Source: Hydrogenivirga caldilitoris (lineage in GTDB: Bacteria; Aquificota; Aquificia; Aquificales; Aquificaceae). Taken from it: a stretch of 64,000 bases of DNA. How positions within the stretch are numbered: the stretch's first letter is position 1; each line of letters begins with the position of its first letter. Below the pieces are notes generated by a model. That model did no database searches. It was not told the DNA's origin and was given only the letters and a program-made list of their open reading frames with translations. The stretch spans positions 496,001 through 560,000 of the forward strand of contig NZ_RCCJ01000001.1 of assembly GCF_003664005.1 (NCBI RefSeq), given 5' to 3'. The position numbers were made by a program, and so were the translations under genes. Below, piece after piece: positions 2,212 through 59,067 of the stretch.

Positions 2212-4665
2212 TCACTCCCTTAAGAGCTTCCCTACCTCTTCTCTAAGTTCCTCTGTGAGTTCTTCATAGCTTTTTTCATCAGGATATAGGGGTTTTCCTA
2301 CCCTAACCTTTATCTTTTTAGGCTTAGGGAGCTTATCGTATATAGACCAGGCATCGTACGTGCCTTGAAGCCCCACGGGTACTATGGGTATGTTGAGCTC
2401 CCTGCTCAGTATGGCTACCCCCTTCTTGAACTCCATAAGCTCTCCCGTGCGTGTGCGGGCTCCCTCTGGGAATATAACCACAACCTTACCCTCTTTAAGG
2501 GCGTAAGCGACCTTTCTAAGGGAATTCTTCAGGTCTCTGTTTATGTTGACAGTTATGACGTGGGCAAGATTGCCGAAGAGCCTAGCAACCGGATTTCTGA
2601 AGTAGACCTCCTCGCCAAGGAAGTAGGTGTTTTCGGCGACTCCACCGGGAAGGACCGAGGCGAGGACAAAGGCGTCTAAGTAACTGGCGTGATTGGGAGC
2701 GAGGATGAAAGGTGGTTTCGGCAAGTTTTCCAGTCCCTCTACCTCAATCCTGTTGTAGAGCTTGAAGAATAAATTCAGTATGGCTCTTCCCAGTCTGAAT
2801 ATAAAGGGATAGTCTTTCAGTTCGTAACCTGGCGTTTCCTGTAGTATTTCCTTCCAACTCACCTCTCTTATCTCAACGTGCTCCTTCCTGTCTTTAACGA
2901 GGTTTATAAGCTCTTTTACCGTGCTGTGTTTTGAAAGCTCCTCCTCGCTTATGCTCACACCGAAGGACCTCTCCAGGAAACTAAGAAGCTCAACCTTTCC
3001 CAGGGAATCAAGACCGAGGTCAAGCTCTATATGGTGCGACGGCAACACCGTTTTTCCTGTTTCCTTCTCCAGGTACCTCTTTATCAACTCACCTTCGGGA
3101 CTTGTAAATACACTCATGTCCTCCTGGGTCTTCGGTTTTTCAAGAGCTTTCTCGTAGAGTTCTGGTAACATAAACCTCCTTAGCTTCCCTAACCTTGTCT
3201 TGGGTAGTTCTGTCGGGGACAGTCTGAACCCTACTATCCTCTTCCAATCCGGGAGTTGTCGGTTAATAGGGTCAATCACTTCCCACTTTATGGTTTCTTC
3301 AAGGTTTACAATCCCCTTAGCCTTGACCTTCTCCAGGTCTGGGTATATGAGGGCATGTAGTTTCCCTTCCCTATCAAGGATGCCCACTTCCTTTATAAGG
3401 TCTGAGCTTCTAAGTATCAGATTCTCAAGCTCCTCGGGTTGAATGTTCTTTCCTGTTCCAAGCACTATCAGCTCCTTCTTCCTACCCTTTATGTAGAGGT
3501 AACCCTCTTCATCCATCTCCCCCAGGTCGCCGGTGTATAACCAGCCGTTCTTTATAACCTCCTCAGTTTCCCTGGGCTTGTTCCAATAGCCCTTCATAAC
3601 GTTGGGTCCTTTTACGAGAACCTCTCCATCTTCTGCGAGTCTGATTTGAACGCCTTTTATGGGTAAACCCACGGAACCAAGTTTTAGCCTGTCCGGGGGG
3701 TTAAAGGTAACTATCGGTGAGGTCTCGGTAAGCCCGTAGCCTTCTATAACGGTGAAACCAAGGGTTGTGAAGTCCTCTGCTACCTGAAGGTCTAATTTAG
3801 CCCCTCCGCTTACCATATACTTAACCTTCCCTCCGAATACCTGGTGAACCTTGGAGAATACTCTCCTGCGAACAGGCTGGAGTTTTACTCTTTCCATCGC
3901 CTTGAAGAGAAGCTTCACAAAGAGGTTCTCTTCCAGTTTCTCCTTAATCCTCTTGTGAAATAGGACATAAAGTCTTGGAACTCCAACTAATATAGTTATA
4001 CCGTATCTCTGGAGTTTTTCCAGGATATCTTCTGGCGTAAGCTTATCAAGGAAAACCACCGTAGCTCCTATGTGAAGTGGCACTAAAAGGGTTACCATAA
4101 GGGGGTAAGAATGATGAAAGGGTAGAATGGCGAGCGTTGAATCTTCCTTTGTAGCTATTCCTGTTTCCGCAACACCCTCTATGTTGGAGAAAAGGTTTCT
4201 GAAGGTGAGCATAACTCCCTTCGGAGCTCCCGTCGTTCCGGAAGTATAGAGAAGTAGAGCTATATCCTCAATATCCCTATGGAAGAATCTTTCATATGGT
4301 TTGGGTAACGCAACCTCATCGTAATTTATAACCGTAAGCTTAGCCTGTGCAAGCGCAATTGCATCTTCAAGAACTTCCTTTGTCTGGTTTGAACACAGGG
4401 CGATCTTGGGTTTTGCATCGGTTATTATGTAGGAGACTTCTTCCGGCGTTGACATGAAATCAACCGGGACCGCTATTGAACCCCTCCTCCAAATGGCGTA
4501 GAGGGAGTAGACCCACTCAGGTCTGTTTTCCGATATTATAAGAACCCTTTCATCCGGTAAAGAGTCTATTAGATTTGCAAAAGAGCCTATGTGTTCTATA
4601 AGTTCTGCATAACTTATCTCCTTCCCCCCGTAAATTAAAGCAGTCTTTCCGTGATCTCTGACCAT
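2212..4665 (-). CDS. Acyl-ACP synthetase - ACP - acyltransferase fusion (Aas-like)
   Basis: A three-domain lipid enzyme of about 817 residues. The first 500 or so residues are an AMP-forming acyl ligase with the P-loop LLLYTSGTTGAPKGVMLT and the YGLTETSP motif. Next is an acyl-carrier-protein domain with the phosphopantetheine serine in LGLDSLGKVEL. The last 200 residues are a PlsC-type acyltransferase with NHASYLD (HX4D) and FPEGARTRTG. It would activate free fatty acids, hold them on its own carrier domain and transfer them to a lysophospholipid. Domain order is the reverse of E. coli Aas, which has acyltransferase first. The frame can be opened by TTG at 4704, ATG at 4683 or ATG at 4665; 4665 is chosen because it starts close to the ligase core and avoids overlapping the divergent gene. 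Confidence 0.88.
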   Translation of the reverse strand: MVRDHGKTALIYGGKEISYAELIEHIGSFANLIDSLPDERVLIISENRPEWVYSLYAIWRRGSIAVPVDFMSTPEEVSYIITDAKPKIALCSNQTKEVLEDAIALAQAKLTVINYDEVALPKPYERFFHRDIEDIALLLYTSGTTGAPKGVMLTFRNLFSNIEGVAETGIATKEDSTLAILPFHHSYPLMVTLLVPLHIGATVVFLDKLTPEDILEKLQRYGITILVGVPRLYVLFHKRIKEKLEENLFVKLLFKAMERVKLQPVRRRVFSKVHQVFGGKVKYMVSGGAKLDLQVAEDFTTLGFTVIEGYGLTETSPIVTFNPPDRLKLGSVGLPIKGVQIRLAEDGEVLVKGPNVMKGYWNKPRETEEVIKNGWLYTGDLGEMDEEGYLYIKGRKKELIVLGTGKNIQPEELENLILRSSDLIKEVGILDREGKLHALIYPDLEKVKAKGIVNLEETIKWEVIDPINRQLPDWKRIVGFRLSPTELPKTRLGKLRRFMLPELYEKALEKPKTQEDMSVFTSPEGELIKRYLEKETGKTVLPSHHIELDLGLDSLGKVELLSFLERSFGVSISEEELSKHSTVKELINLVKDRKEHVEIREVSWKEILQETPGYELKDYPFIFRLGRAILNLFFKLYNRIEVEGLENLPKPPFILAPNHASYLDAFVLASVLPGGVAENTYFLGEEVYFRNPVARLFGNLAHVITVNINRDLKNSLRKVAYALKEGKVVVIFPEGARTRTGELMEFKKGVAILSRELNIPIVPVGLQGTYDAWSIYDKLPKPKKIKVRVGKPLYPDEKSYEELTEELREEVGKLLRE

Positions 4666-7721: not shown

Positions 7722-9806
7722 ATGAAGAGGATAAAGGTTGCCATAGCTGGAAACCCCAACGTGGGGAAAACGACGATTCTGAACCAGATAGCCGGGACTT
7801 CCTTAAAGGTGGGGAACTGGCCCGGAGTTACGGTTGAGAAGAAAGAGGCTGTCGTGAAGTTTGGGGACTACGAAATTTACCTGGTTGACCTCCCAGGGAT
7901 ATACACCCTTGAACCCATCTCGGAAGATGAGAGGATAGCAGTTCGTTTCCTTGAAGAAGAAAAGCCCGATGTGATACTTAACATACTGGAAACCCCAAAC
8001 ATTGAGAGAAACCTTCTCCTAACCACGGAACTTCTGGAATTTGGAATCCCAACGGTTGTGGTTCTGAACATGATAGATGAAGCTAACAAGCTCGGCATTG
8101 AAGTTGATGAAAAAAGGATTGAGGAGCTTTTGAATGTAAAGGCTATAAAAACCATAGGAAGAACCGGTTTAGGTACTAAGGATATACTCCCAGCCATAGT
8201 TGAGACCTATGAGAAAAAGCTCAGTCCAAAACCTGTGACCTACACTCCTGAGCTTGAAGAAGCGCTTAAGAGGGTATATGACTCCTTAGAAAATAAGGAG
8301 GTAAACAAATACGAGCTTATAAAGCTCCTCTTGAACGGGGAAAAGTTTTCCGAACTGAGGAGGGAGCTTGAGAATAGGACAGGAAAGAAGGTTTACGACC
8401 TGGTCAACGATGAAAGGTACGCCTTTGCCCACGGTCTCTTTGCGGAGGTCGTTAAGAAAAGAGGAGTTTCGGCTAAGGATATAACCGACAGCATAGACAG
8501 AGTGGTTCTTCATCCCTATCTGGGGTTTTTAGTGTTTGTGGCAGTTATCTACATAACCTTCAAACTTGCCTTTGACTTCTCGTCCCCTTTTGTAGACTGG
8601 ATAGACGGTTTCATAAACAACTTCTTAGCGCCTCTTACTTTTTCCATTATGAAGACTCTCCATCTACCGGAGTGGTTCCTCCGCTTTTTCTCAGAAGCGG
8701 TGGTTGGTGGCGTCGGCTTCGTCTTAACCTTTGTCCCTCTTATAGCCGTCCTCTACTTATTTATAACCTTCCTTGAGATGTCGGGCTACATTCCGAGGGT
8801 AGCCTTCCTCATGGACAGGTTTATGCACAGGATAGGACTTCACGGGAAGAGCGTAATTCCCCTGATACTCGGCTTTGGGTGTAACGTCCCGGCGATAATA
8901 GCCACGAGAACTATGGAATCAACGAGGGATAAGCTCCTTGTAATAATGATGATTCCCTTTATGAGCTGCCCAGCAAGGCTTGTTGTCTTTGCCTTCTTTG
9001 CCTCTATATTCTTTAAAGACCACCCAGCCCTCGTTATAACCTTTCTGTACATGCTCGGTATATTTGTTGCCCTTTTGACCGGTTTTCTCCTGAGAAAGAC
9101 CGTTTATAGAGAGACTCTTTCCCACTTCGTTATGGAACTTCCACCCTACAGACTTCCCTCCCTGAGGTCCGTTTTAACTATAGTGTTAGTTCACGTGAAA
9201 GACTTTCTTTACAGGGCGGGGACCTTAATATTCGGTGCCTCTATAGTGATATGGCTACTCCTTAACTTACCGCCGGGTGTAAAGAACCCTTCAGAAAGCA
9301 TCGCAGGGTCAGTAGGCAGGGCAATAGTTCCTGTTTTTGAACCCATAGGTATAAGCGACTGGAAGGCGACTACCTCTCTTATCCCCGCATTTCTTGCGAG
9401 GGAGATAGTTTTAAGTTCCATGGGCACAATATACACAGCTTCAGAAGGCGGTGAGAAGAAGGAGAAAACCTTTGACCTCTGGGAAGCTCTGAAAAGTCAA
9501 GTCACAGGTTTGGGAACAGCTCTGAAGGATGCGGTGAGCTCTGTTCTCACCTTTAGCATCACCTCCCTTCAGGTTGATGAGGAAGAAAGCGATACCCTCA
9601 GAGAGCTTATAAGGAAGGACTTCACACCAGCTTCAGCCATGTCTTTTATGGTATTTATCCTTATATACACCTCGTGCCTGGGAACCTATGCTGTTATGGT
9701 TCGTGAGATAGGTAAGCTAAGAGCCACCCTGTTCCTCGGATACAGCTTCATCGCCGCTTGGGTTACAGCCTTCGTCATTTATAAGGTATTTAACATACTG
9801 GGATAA
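7722..9806 (+). CDS. feoB: Ferrous iron transporter FeoB
   Basis: A 694-residue Fe(II) importer of the cytoplasmic membrane. The N-terminal G domain has G1 (GNPNVGKTT), the GNWPGVTVEKKE switch, DLPG (G3) and LNMIDE in the G4 position. A cytosolic helical segment follows to about 260, then the membrane domain with two Gate repeats, including GFGCNVPAI and the SCPAR segment. It has no C-terminal FeoC-like extension, and feoA is a separate gene. The 3' end overlaps the convergent lipoate-ligase fusion by 28 bp. Ferrous uptake suits an anaerobic or microaerobic habitat. Confidence 0.96.
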   Translation: MKRIKVAIAGNPNVGKTTILNQIAGTSLKVGNWPGVTVEKKEAVVKFGDYEIYLVDLPGIYTLEPISEDERIAVRFLEEEKPDVILNILETPNIERNLLLTTELLEFGIPTVVVLNMIDEANKLGIEVDEKRIEELLNVKAIKTIGRTGLGTKDILPAIVETYEKKLSPKPVTYTPELEEALKRVYDSLENKEVNKYELIKLLLNGEKFSELRRELENRTGKKVYDLVNDERYAFAHGLFAEVVKKRGVSAKDITDSIDRVVLHPYLGFLVFVAVIYITFKLAFDFSSPFVDWIDGFINNFLAPLTFSIMKTLHLPEWFLRFFSEAVVGGVGFVLTFVPLIAVLYLFITFLEMSGYIPRVAFLMDRFMHRIGLHGKSVIPLILGFGCNVPAIIATRTMESTRDKLLVIMMIPFMSCPARLVVFAFFASIFFKDHPALVITFLYMLGIFVALLTGFLLRKTVYRETLSHFVMELPPYRLPSLRSVLTIVLVHVKDFLYRAGTLIFGASIVIWLLLNLPPGVKNPSESIAGSVGRAIVPVFEPIGISDWKATTSLIPAFLAREIVLSSMGTIYTASEGGEKKEKTFDLWEALKSQVTGLGTALKDAVSSVLTFSITSLQVDEEESDTLRELIRKDFTPASAMSFMVFILIYTSCLGTYAVMVREIGKLRATLFLGYSFIAAWVTAFVIYKVFNILG

Positions 9807-11977
9807 TTAACGAATTCTTCCAACTTCTCTGCGTTTATGCCGCTCAGGGAAACGTCCGCATCGGGATGCCCATAAAGGTTACATAGGGTAACTATCTTGG
9901 TGTCGGTATGCTTTTTTAAGAGTCTTATCACGAAGTCCGTCCTGTAACAGTGAACTCCGATCATCAGGGTGAGGTCGTGATTTCCATGCAGGATTGAGAT
10001 ATGAGGATTTGGAGGGTCTATTTCCCTTGACGGGTCAAAGTTCTTATTCTTGGGTCTGTAGTCGGGAAGGACGTGAACGTTGAGGTTGGGAAACAACTCC
10101 TTTAGCTTCTTTACGAGTTCTGCCTTTCTCTCGGTTTCCTCACTCCATCTCCAAAGAACCAACGGTCCAACTATTATCGTGGGTCTCTCAGCTTTCATTA
10201 GGAGCTTCACAGCCTCCCTAAAGGCTTCCTCATACCTAACCTTCTCCCCGTTTATGAAGCCAACGTTCTTATCCTTTTCCTTAACTATCGGAAGTCTTGT
10301 CCTGTCCTCCTCAGGTCCGGAAACAGCTTTTGGGATTTTGTAGTACTCGGGTATGAAATCTCTCAGGGGCTCAGCCGGTTGAGGTCTTTCCCTCTTCTGT
10401 CTCTCATCATGCTCTTCAACTTTCTCTTTCAGGGACAGAATCTTCTGGGAATCTTCCACGAAGAGGTCAAGCTCAACCTGAAACTCTCCGTGGTAAGCCT
10501 TTTCCTCCTCCTCAACACCAAGGTCGTAACAGGTTGTTCCTATTATGTCTATAAGTACTCCGTTGGCTCCCCAGTCTTTAGCCTTCCTGAATATTTCATA
10601 TCTCTTCTCGTAGAACTCATAGCAACAGTGCCCTATATAGGTGTATCCGTTTTCGGCACACCACTGAAGGGTATCCCGAAGCATTTCAAAGCTTGTTATG
10701 GTTATAGGTATCATGCCCCTCTCGTAAGCCATGCGGTACAGGTCTCCAACTGTACACCCACCACACTCACCACAATCATCTGTGTGCCTGTAGTCACACC
10801 ATGCAGGCTTTGCGCAGTATGGGAGAAGCATAACCTTCGCCTTCTTAATGTTGTCCTTCAGACCACCCCCTATACTACCTATCACCTTGTTCAGACTTTT
10901 TTTTTCAATACCGAGGTCTTGGGCTTCCAACTTCCTCAAAGGGAACATAACGGCTTCAACAAAGTCATCAACCGTAAGGTTTACACTCTCAAACCTGTTT
11001 TTCTCAAAGAATTCCCTTATCCTCTTTTCTACGTCCTGGACGGGTGTATGTTTCAAATAGGCTTCCAAGTCGTATATGAGCCTTTTAGGGTTTATGAAGA
11101 GGTCCCCGTTAATAACCACCTGCTGGAGCAACTTCCTATCGCTGTCCACCTTTGCCGAAACCCTGAAGGTCCCTCCTGGACACCTGTATATACCGAAAAG
11201 GACTTCTGAGCTTTCGGGTGCACGCTTTACGTGATATATCCATTCATCGCTCTTGAAGTAGTCCTTCTTCTCCTCTAAAAGCCTTTTCTCTTCTTCCGTG
11301 AGTTCCCCCCATTGGGCTTCTATCCCAAATTCTTCCTTAAAGGCTTGAAGGAAAGCCTGGAAGACCTCCTCCTTTTCTGGTATCCTTCCAAGCTCTCTTT
11401 TAAGCCACGTTACCCTGTCCTCTGCTGCCTTAATGCCCTTTGAAGTAAGCTTTTCAACTGGTATCTGTAGAGATTTGAGCATTCTCTCCACATTGAAGTC
11501 AACCAGAACCGTTCCCTGATAGAGGAAGGCATTGCCCTCAAAGACACCACCCGTTCCCGAAATCTTTTTACCTTCAACCTCTATATCGTTCCTTGGTCTG
11601 AATTCTGCTTTGACACCGAGCTTGTTGAGAGCTTTTGCGGCAGCCTTGCATATCTTCTCCGTAATATGCTCGTAACTGAGTTCCCCAAAGTCTCTCCTAT
11701 CAGCTATTATTTCCCAGCCTATCTGGGTCTCGTCAAAGTATATGGCTCCTCCTCCCGTTATCCTCCTACCTACCTCTATACCCTCCCTTTTCGTGTACTC
11801 CTCCCTCACCTCCTGCTCTATGGCTTGATGGTATCCTATGAGAACACACTCGGGCTTGAACTGGAGGAATCTTATGGTGTTTGGTATTTTACCTTCTGCT
11901 TTTAGCTCAAGCATAACCTGGTCAAGAGCTATGTTCTCATTCTGGGGTCGCTGCCCTGTATATATAACTCTCCACAT
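9779..11977 (-). CDS. Lipoate-protein ligase A / DUF116 / CODH epsilon-like fusion
   Basis: A 732-residue protein with at least three parts. Residues 1 to about 260 are a lipoate-protein ligase A catalytic domain (RRITGGGAIYFDE, and NDIEVEGKKISGTGG with the conserved Lys), followed to about 355 by the accessory domain (GIYRCPGGTFRVSAKV). Residues about 365-530 are a DUF116 domain rich in cysteine (LLPYC, PAWCDYR, DDCGECGGCTVGDL, GHCCYEF). Residues about 550-732 resemble the epsilon/CdhB subunit of CO dehydrogenase/acetyl-CoA synthase (PTIIVGPLV, LTLMIGVHCYRTDFVIRLLKK). The start has a GGAGGG Shine-Dalgarno. Lipoate attachment to a GcvH or a lipoate-binding sulfur-oxidation protein is the likely role of the first part; what the others add is unknown. 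Confidence 0.82.
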   Translation of the reverse strand: MWRVIYTGQRPQNENIALDQVMLELKAEGKIPNTIRFLQFKPECVLIGYHQAIEQEVREEYTKREGIEVGRRITGGGAIYFDETQIGWEIIADRRDFGELSYEHITEKICKAAAKALNKLGVKAEFRPRNDIEVEGKKISGTGGVFEGNAFLYQGTVLVDFNVERMLKSLQIPVEKLTSKGIKAAEDRVTWLKRELGRIPEKEEVFQAFLQAFKEEFGIEAQWGELTEEEKRLLEEKKDYFKSDEWIYHVKRAPESSEVLFGIYRCPGGTFRVSAKVDSDRKLLQQVVINGDLFINPKRLIYDLEAYLKHTPVQDVEKRIREFFEKNRFESVNLTVDDFVEAVMFPLRKLEAQDLGIEKKSLNKVIGSIGGGLKDNIKKAKVMLLPYCAKPAWCDYRHTDDCGECGGCTVGDLYRMAYERGMIPITITSFEMLRDTLQWCAENGYTYIGHCCYEFYEKRYEIFRKAKDWGANGVLIDIIGTTCYDLGVEEEEKAYHGEFQVELDLFVEDSQKILSLKEKVEEHDERQKRERPQPAEPLRDFIPEYYKIPKAVSGPEEDRTRLPIVKEKDKNVGFINGEKVRYEEAFREAVKLLMKAERPTIIVGPLVLWRWSEETERKAELVKKLKELFPNLNVHVLPDYRPKNKNFDPSREIDPPNPHISILHGNHDLTLMIGVHCYRTDFVIRLLKKHTDTKIVTLCNLYGHPDADVSLSGINAEKLEEFVNYPSMLNTL

Positions 11978-57888: not shown

Positions 57889-58466
57889 TTTACTTTATCT
57901 CTGACACGCACTTTTACCATTTCAACATTCTAAAGCTCAATCCCCAAGCCCGGAAGTTTGGTTTTGAACGTATAACCGTTGAAGCTCTGGAGAAAACCCT
58001 CAAGGAAGGTGATACCCTGTACCACCTCGGAGACTTTACCTGGCAACTTTACGATGAGTTTGGTGTTCTTGAAAGATGGAAGGAACTACCTGCAAGAAAG
58101 GTACTTATCATGGGAAACCACGATGAGAGATTCGGAAGCTCTGTGCTCAGGGAGTTCTTTGATGAGGTCTATGAATTTTCGTTATTGTTGGAAGAGTCGG
58201 GCAGGAAATTTCTCCTTTCCCACTACCCAGCCCTTGACCTTAAAACGAACAGATTTCCCGATAGACAGGAAAGGGTTGAAAAGGAGTTTTTTCAAAGCGG
58301 ATGTGATTTTCTCGTACATGGACATGTCCATTACAACAACGGCGGACCGATGTGCGGGTGTGGCTCAAAGGGAATTCCCTGTTTTAATGTAAATGTTGAG
58401 CTTCATAACTTTAGACCTGTAAGTTTAGAGGAATTACTCTTTGCAGGTTGTGAAGGAAAACTGTGA
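57885..58466 (+). CDS. Calcineurin-like metallophosphoesterase
   Basis: A 193-residue dimetal phosphoesterase of the small YfcE/phage-like type. Motifs in order: SDTHFYHFN (DxH), GDFTW (GD), GNHDER (GNHD), LSHYP and GHVHY (GHxH). The substrate is unknown. It overlaps mnmG by 4 bases and, on the other strand, the LipM-like gene by 56 bp, the longest tail-to-tail overlap in the window. Confidence 0.88.
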   Translation: MIYFISDTHFYHFNILKLNPQARKFGFERITVEALEKTLKEGDTLYHLGDFTWQLYDEFGVLERWKELPARKVLIMGNHDERFGSSVLREFFDEVYEFSLLLEESGRKFLLSHYPALDLKTNRFPDRQERVEKEFFQSGCDFLVHGHVHYNNGGPMCGCGSKGIPCFNVNVELHNFRPVSLEELLFAGCEGKL

Positions 58467-59067
58467 TAAATTCCTCCTCTTCTATTCCCAGTTCCCTTAA
58501 AGAGACTATCCTTTCAGAGAGAAGCTCAGCAGGTACACCTATCAGCTCCTGCACCCTTTCGTAATCAAAATCAAGGTAAACGCTCCCGTGCACCAGAAAA
58601 CTCCTTTTGAGAGTTCTCATAGCCATTGATACCAGTTTCCTTTTCCTGTAAGTGAGCTCTCCCAGCGTGGGAACCCAGAAGCAGAAAAAGTTGTCAATAT
58701 ATCTTCCCCTGAAACGCTCAAGGGTTACCTCAATTCCAAGATTGGAGAAGGAGTTTATAAAAACCTCAGCCACTTTTCTGTATATTCTTGAGGGTGTTAA
58801 ACCCCACCTCTCTCTGAGGTCAACTATTGAGAAGGATACATCCCAGCCGTGGAGTAGAGCTCCGCCGCCCGTAGGTCTACGAACCGTGGGAACCGTTAAA
58901 AACGGTTTTTCCTTTTGGAAGTAACCAAGGCTCAGGCATATTCTGTCCCACTTATACAGACGTACCGAGGGTTCTCTAAAGGGTGTATGTTCAAAGGAGA
59001 GGAGGGCTTCTTCGTCCCTCCTCATATTTTCCTCCGGAGAAAGGGTTTCTACCTTAATCTCCCACAC
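58411..59067 (-). CDS. LipM/LplA-like octanoyltransferase or lipoate ligase
   Basis: A 218-residue cofactor transferase. RRPTGGGALLHGWDVSFS is the lipoyl-binding loop. The Cys in FCFWVPTLGELTYRKRKLVS matches the position of the LipM catalytic Cys, and the Lys in RKRKLVSMAMRTLKRSF matches the lipoyl-AMP Lys; the usual GSAQR is changed to SMAMR. LVHGSVYLDFD completes the fold. It could transfer octanoyl groups from ACP to GcvH or E2 proteins. The window also encodes a large LplA fusion at 9779-11977. Confidence 0.82.
   Translation of the reverse strand: MWEIKVETLSPEENMRRDEEALLSFEHTPFREPSVRLYKWDRICLSLGYFQKEKPFLTVPTVRRPTGGGALLHGWDVSFSIVDLRERWGLTPSRIYRKVAEVFINSFSNLGIEVTLERFRGRYIDNFFCFWVPTLGELTYRKRKLVSMAMRTLKRSFLVHGSVYLDFDYERVQELIGVPAELLSERIVSLRELGIEEEEFITVFLHNLQRVIPLNLQV

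Follow-up and report, generated by a model that had tools for sequence, protein, structure and literature searches.

Slippage on a run of nine adenines (A9) probably makes two products, a short lipoate-protein ligase and a long form, from one gene of Hydrogenivirga caldilitoris in which the ligase is joined to DUF116 and to a PF02552 domain. The gene lies in a window of 64 kb (the whole stretch of DNA that was analysed), and the run sits at the border between ligase and DUF116. We regard as fairly probable the explanation as a whole, namely two products made by slippage, a ligase that would serve LipS1, LipS2 and LipT, a sulfur or cluster role of DUF116, and docking by the last, delta-like domain. 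The features of the gene were as follows.

9779..11977, minus strand: lplA-DUF116-CO_dh fusion gene, one open reading frame of 732 aa, with its ATG at 11977
11336..11941, minus strand: LplA catalytic domain, residues 13-214, with the motifs RRITGGG, RPRNDIEV and GKKISG and matches to lipoate ligase structures in the PDB
10946..11194, minus strand: LplB-like accessory domain, residues 262-344 (NF053749, 45 bits, cut-off 65)
10897..10905, minus strand: A9 run at the LplA/DUF116 border, predicted slippage site, codons GAA AAA AAA AGT
10891..10893, minus strand: TGA that closes the ligase-only product upon a +1 frame shift (f1 stop, 3 bases past the run)
10875..10877, minus strand: TAG that closes the ligase-only product upon a -1 frame shift (f2 stop, 19 bases past the run)
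10412..10894, minus strand: DUF116 domain, residues 362-522, with eight conserved Cys and a Rossmann-like model
9812..10267, minus strand: PF02552 domain, residues 571-722, a paralogue of OFOR delta subunits

The first-pass annotation had described three domains joined in one chain, and the fusion proved real, as a single minus-strand reading frame in which every domain was matched and in which the quoted DUF116 motifs PAWCDYR and DCGECGGC were found. Pfam searches placed LplA-B_cat (PF21948) at residues 13-214 with 165 bits (cut-off 27), DUF116 (PF01976) at residues 378-431 with 25.6 bits, and 28.6 in a second search (cut-off 25), and CO_dh (PF02552) at residues 571-722 with 171.5 bits. The LplB-like NCBIfam match at residues 262-344, a part that the first-pass annotation had not named and that lies under its cut-off, is the reason for assigning the ligase provisionally to the LplA+LplB kind. 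The RRxTGGG, NDI and catalytic Lys motifs, which we take to be the signature of the lipoate-protein ligase LplA, are kept in the fusion and gone in genus g10 (Hydrogenobaculum). The AlphaFold2 model of the whole 732 aa protein had a mean pLDDT of 86.5 and resembled PDB lipoate ligases in a structure search. Two more ligases are encoded in the same genome: a second, small LplA/B-type protein of 218 aa within the window (58411-59067, minus strand; PF21948, 60.5 bits), which is without the LplB part, and a third elsewhere (L034:9291-10340).

The A9 run, on which the first-pass annotation had not remarked, falls at about residues 358-361, past the LplB-like domain and ahead of DUF116, and this position at a domain border means that the short product would be a whole enzyme. 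The border was counted at 52 loci, three of which were unmatched by the search motif (G064, G077 and G012); the borders of G064 and G077 were read later and carry A9, in frame, and the sequence of G012 begins within the gene. Among the other 49 genomes, the run was A9 in 43, A10 in one (G013) and A8 in one (G083), and it was missing in four, all of them Hydrogenobaculum. A border run of eight to ten adenines was thus present in 47/51 Aquificaceae genomes with a readable border; these run counts and the frame counts given below come from genomes of one family, which are not independent.

Runs of this length are scarce elsewhere in the same DNA. The border A9 is the sole A9 of the 64-kb window, in which shuffles expect 2, and the whole 1.75-Mb genome (G000) has three A9 sites, the border included. 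The gene names of the other two were assigned from their translations: one A9 lies near the 3' end of dnaX (L180:3323-4687; run at C1:168355-168363, minus strand) and one in the first codons of an ftsQ-like gene (L181:3188-3907; run at C1:564202-564210, plus strand). In G033 the border holds the only A9 genome-wide, and in 9/9 complete or near-complete genomes checked outside Hydrogenobaculum the border was among 1-10 distinct A9 runs. Beyond the border, the same 45 genes contained no run of at least nine adenines across 97,401 bases, and their Lys codons were AAA 868 times versus AAG 1610 times. When the codons of the border peptide were shuffled in the 37 in-frame genes (the 8 split genes and the 4 from Hydrogenobaculum were excluded), A9 arose with a mean p of 0.053, and the product of the per-genus maxima over 7 genera, which are not independent, was 1e-8.

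The reading frame around the run was far less constant than the run itself. Eight of the 49 genomes have a split gene, in which the ligase frame stops right past the run and DUF116 follows in the -1 frame, and across genomes the run begins at each of the three codon positions. On the tree we counted 7 frame changes, 6 of them forced by starred branches, against one change of the run, and a tree of the DUF116-CO_dh part (two short rows omitted; root set by hand between the halves of the family) again gave 7 and 1. As read from the alignments, the frame-shifting indels flank the run closely on one side or the other; G083, with its A8, is the exception. Draft assemblies make up most of the split genomes, and some splits, such as that of G083, could be mimicked by homopolymer errors. 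In 45/45 genes, each of the two off-frames meets a stop no more than 27 bases past the run, whereas among control codon positions stops in both off-frames within a matching span were found at 3809/14326 (27%). In its effect on the frame, one extra A in the mRNA is the same as a -1 shift; a gain of one base would therefore restore all of the split genes.

We infer slippage itself, like the specificity of the ligase, from the sequence. RNA polymerase would slip at A9, and a fraction of the mRNAs would carry extra or missing A's. In one frame, translation would stop a few codons past the run and release a complete LplA-LplB ligase of ~360 residues; in the other, it would continue to give the ligase-DUF116-delta-like long form. 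The DNA frame may drift while the run is kept because either DNA frame would yield both products, and a kept run with a drifting frame would make a clean evolutionary signature of slippage. In Hydrogenobaculum, the border run is absent, the pseudo-ligase domain is without its motifs, and a separate intact ligase gene is present (G025, G032); that separate ligase may have made the run dispensable and so account for its loss, which fits slippage. To our knowledge, cellular genes with family-wide conserved slippage coding are rare in bacteria. The border run shows the same features as dnaX of Thermus thermophilus, a case of transcriptional slippage, as far as the portion of its description consulted here goes (PMC5009743), but unlike it belongs to a cofactor-attachment gene and switches its DNA frame between species.

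Overall, the features of the border run appear to fit slippage by the polymerase better than frameshifting by the ribosome, because the run begins at all three codon positions and no consistent stable hairpin followed it in the five sequences folded. Programmed -1 frameshifting by the ribosome, at A AAA AAA/G inside the run and in the manner of E. coli dnaX, would explain why all 8 split genomes require a -1 shift, and the heptamer is present in A9 whatever the register. However, nine and not seven A's have been kept (9 or 10 in 46/47), the start of the run is spread over all three codon positions, and five folded downstream sequences showed no consistent stable hairpin (z 0.76 to -0.89 versus shuffles), so that we hold this mechanism to be improbable. 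A protein started internally, as a separate DUF116-CO_dh product, was considered and rejected: the closest candidate Met (KVMLLPYC) is not shared by G022, and such a start would leave the A run unexplained.

Two further readings were weighed. If the gene were an ordinary fixed fusion, with the A run a Lys-rich linker or a product of chance and the splits assembly errors or decay, the in-frame majority of genomes would be expected and the several splits that come from draft MAGs would be accounted for; what makes this very improbable is the codon-shuffle result, the zero A9 elsewhere in these genes with three A9 per genome, and the form of the eight splits, all of them -1, with long open frames on either side and indels outside the run. 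The locus might also be phase-variable, with replication slippage in the run toggling fused and split genes between cells, and a homopolymer at a domain border, together with the A8 of G083 and the A10 of G013, would suit it. Yet the run hardly varies in length, and the frame was changed by indels that lie outside it; we hold this reading, too, to be very improbable.

We then related the fusion to lipoyl assembly genes. DUF116 was found in 51/136 Aquificota genomes, every one in family f1. A whole-protein search found the fusion across most of f1 and not in genus g3 (three genomes, 99% completeness); in G022, the ligase and a short DUF116 are separate genes, without PF02552. Among 48 good relatives in the order (completeness of 90% or more, contamination of 5% or less; LipS2 called at E < 1e-50), LipS2 and DUF116 were both present in 22 and both absent in 26, although few evolutionary events underlie these co-occurrence counts and those given next. 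In the wider set of 61, which includes drafts, LipS2 occurred without a DUF116 match in G006, G008 and G020, and DUF116 without LipS2 in G009; in G012, LipS2 is present, the DUF116 profile is silent and only the fusion search matches. LipS1 was present in 7/7 genomes with DUF116 and absent in 5/5 without it (12 genomes searched), and LipT homologues above 220 bits were found in 5/5 searched genomes with DUF116 and 0/2 without. LipA occurs almost everywhere in the relatives and gave no match over the cut-off in Hydrogenobaculum (G025, G032), where lipoate synthesis seems to rest on LipS1/LipS2 alone.

In the window's genome, LipS1 scored 243 bits, over its cut-off, LipS2 fell short of its own (204 bits against 270), and LipT was recognised by 42% identity to a homologue taken as LipT. 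The LipT homologue (G000 C1:152952-153983) has one TAG inside the aligned stretch, which may lie beyond the true end. The fusion, lipS1, lipS2 and lipT stand at separate sites, and LbpA adjoins lipS1. The sHdr cluster (L177:6424-17558) reads sHdrC1-B1-A-hyp-C2-B2, DsrE-like genes, LbpA and LipS1, and is without ligase, LipT and LipS2. The ligase is probably of the same LplA+LplB kind as that of the sLpl(AB)-LipS1/LipS2-LipT system, and is likewise tied to lipS1, lipS2 and lipT, on the account given in the parts consulted of the papers on that system (PMC10332631, PMC6067878). Those parts do not mention DUF116, which the present ligase carries, and, unlike in that system, the ligase, lipS2 and lipT of the window's genome lie outside the sHdr operon. 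The ligase would load octanoate or lipoate onto LbpA/H-type carriers for the LipS1/LipS2/LipT pathway.

Across 84,980 species, a scan picked out 80 loci, 43 of them outside Aquificota; the loci were found by the patterns LLPYCAKP and GHCCYEF, which favour the DUF116 subfamily of the fusion. DUF116 was joined to LplA in 42/43 of the non-Aquificota loci, and the remaining one is cut by a contig end. Within these 43, lipS1/lipS2/lipT adjoin in 11, a U32 pair in 18, both in none and neither in 14; the lack of lipS/lipT at 32/43 loci was judged within the stretch fetched around each locus. LipS1 and LipS2 neighbours were called by NCBIfam; in L156 and L160 their scores fell short of the cut-offs. 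As LipT we took a FAD protein of the geranylgeranyl-reductase type beside the loci. No A run longer than five was present at the border in 38/43 non-Aquificota loci examined, and no PF02552 was found in the 43 compared. On this sample, both the run and the delta-like domain appear to have been added in Aquificaceae to an LplA-DUF116 protein that is older.

These results support the assignment of this DUF116 subfamily to lipoyl assembly, as the first-pass annotation had suggested: the LplA fusion (42/43), the lipS1/lipS2/lipT neighbours (11/43) and the co-occurrence with LipS2 (22/22 versus 0/26) all point there. Its second suggestion, a special tie to sHdr and LbpA, found no support, as genus g3 is without LipS1, LipS2 and DUF116 although G018, of that genus, carries sHdr genes in the examined stretch and two LbpA; an sHdr-specific role was rejected for this reason. 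PF01976 also matches in Methanocaldococcus jannaschii, where LipS1 and LipA give no match, and other DUF116 proteins may thus act differently. Published LipS1/S2 systems (Thioalkalivibrio, Hyphomicrobium) reportedly have a ligase without DUF116, which would make DUF116 inessential to LipS1/S2 chemistry.

Modelled alone, residues 362-522 gave a mean pLDDT of 92 with AlphaFold2, which indicates that the DUF116 domain is longer than its Pfam match. Eight Cys are invariant across 57 sequences (alignment A2, sampled fusions); they are compatible with the metal cluster that had been proposed for the domain, although sequence is no proof of one. Foldseek and structure comparison found no confident structural relative: the best Foldseek E was 0.035, and the best Z, 7.7, belonged to a designed Rossmann protein, with ~7 for type II dehydroquinases, none of which informs on function. 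A PDB sequence search with the short DUF116 gave no credible match, and a plasmid search gave no match. Our literature search, whose scope excluded most subscription journals and bioRxiv, found no paper joining DUF116 with lipoate or lipoate-protein ligase, and among the titles listed for DUF116 generally none concerned lipoate.

As a hypothesis, DUF116 in the long form would act at the loaded carrier as a helper of LipS1/LipS2; its most likely task would be to handle sulfur or an Fe-S cluster, e.g. to rebuild the auxiliary cluster sacrificed by LipS1/S2. With a ferredoxin system, LipS1/S2 halt at 1 to 1.5 turnovers, according to the part consulted of PMC9585515; a helper that renews the cluster would therefore be wanted, and DUF116 is a candidate. 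The gene gives DUF116 a pathway, LipS1/S2 lipoate assembly; if the hypothesis is true, DUF116 would also be a partner of LipS1/LipS2 that is new and handles sulfur or Fe-S clusters. DUF116 might instead act on the finished lipoyl group (e.g. as a dithiol/disulfide partner of LbpA) or merely place the ligase, with the delta-like domain serving carbon metabolism; in Hydrogenobaculum, DUF116-CO_dh has been retained with a degenerate ligase domain, and no lipS lies close to many of the LplA-DUF116 genes, which such a role would accommodate, but DUF116 is missing in g3, where sHdr and LbpA exist without LipS1/S2, and we think it unlikely, if still worth some weight.

The last domain had been likened to CdhB of CO dehydrogenase. 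It shares the family PF02552 with CdhB/ACS epsilon, and to that extent the likeness stood, but it scored 25.9 bits against the TIGR00315 (CdhB) cut-off of 101.2 in NCBIfam and is nearer to OFOR delta subunits. Two other PF02552 proteins of the window's genome, 38-39% identical to it, are both encoded within five-subunit 2-oxoacid:ferredoxin oxidoreductase operons, and the layout is identical in G042. The Aquifex PF02552 subunits go by the names PORdelta and FORdelta in the part consulted of PMC10052474, which calls it intriguing that they are present; the domain resembles these Aquificales PFOR/OGOR delta subunits in PF02552, in identity and in the motifs GPLVLW, DYRPK and GVHC. Unlike them, it is fused to a ligase and lies outside any PFOR/OGOR operon, and in a tree the domains from the fusions group into a single, well supported clade, separate from the OFOR delta subunits. 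The proposed role of this delta-like domain, apparently added in Aquificaceae, would be docking, either to ferredoxin-linked oxidoreductases or to their ferredoxin. Replacement of LipT by the domain was rejected, as LipT homologues were found in G000, G017, G025, G026 and G031. The puzzling Aquificales 2-oxoacid oxidoreductase delta subunits now have one more relative, the third, which occurs in another setting, and, if the docking is true, a borrowed delta subunit would couple lipoyl synthesis to the reductive TCA cycle through the low-potential ferredoxin enzymes of that cycle. The full combination, in which slippage would set the ratio of ligase to long form family-wide, DUF116 would be a new LipS1/S2 partner and the delta-like domain would link lipoyl synthesis with ferredoxin enzymes, is put forward tentatively, with the odds somewhat against it.

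Proteobacterial LplA-DUF116 genes in the species scan adjoin a U32 (UbiU/UbiV-like) pair, often with UbiD (L116, L120-L121, L125-L127, L133-L134, L137-L142, L144, L147, L151 and L153), which gives DUF116 a second genomic context. Some genomes have two LplA-DUF116 copies (L130/L139, L131/L144 and L137/L146). L118, titled Acidobacteria bacterium J001, carries an Aquificaceae-type three-domain gene and is probably mislabelled or misbinned.
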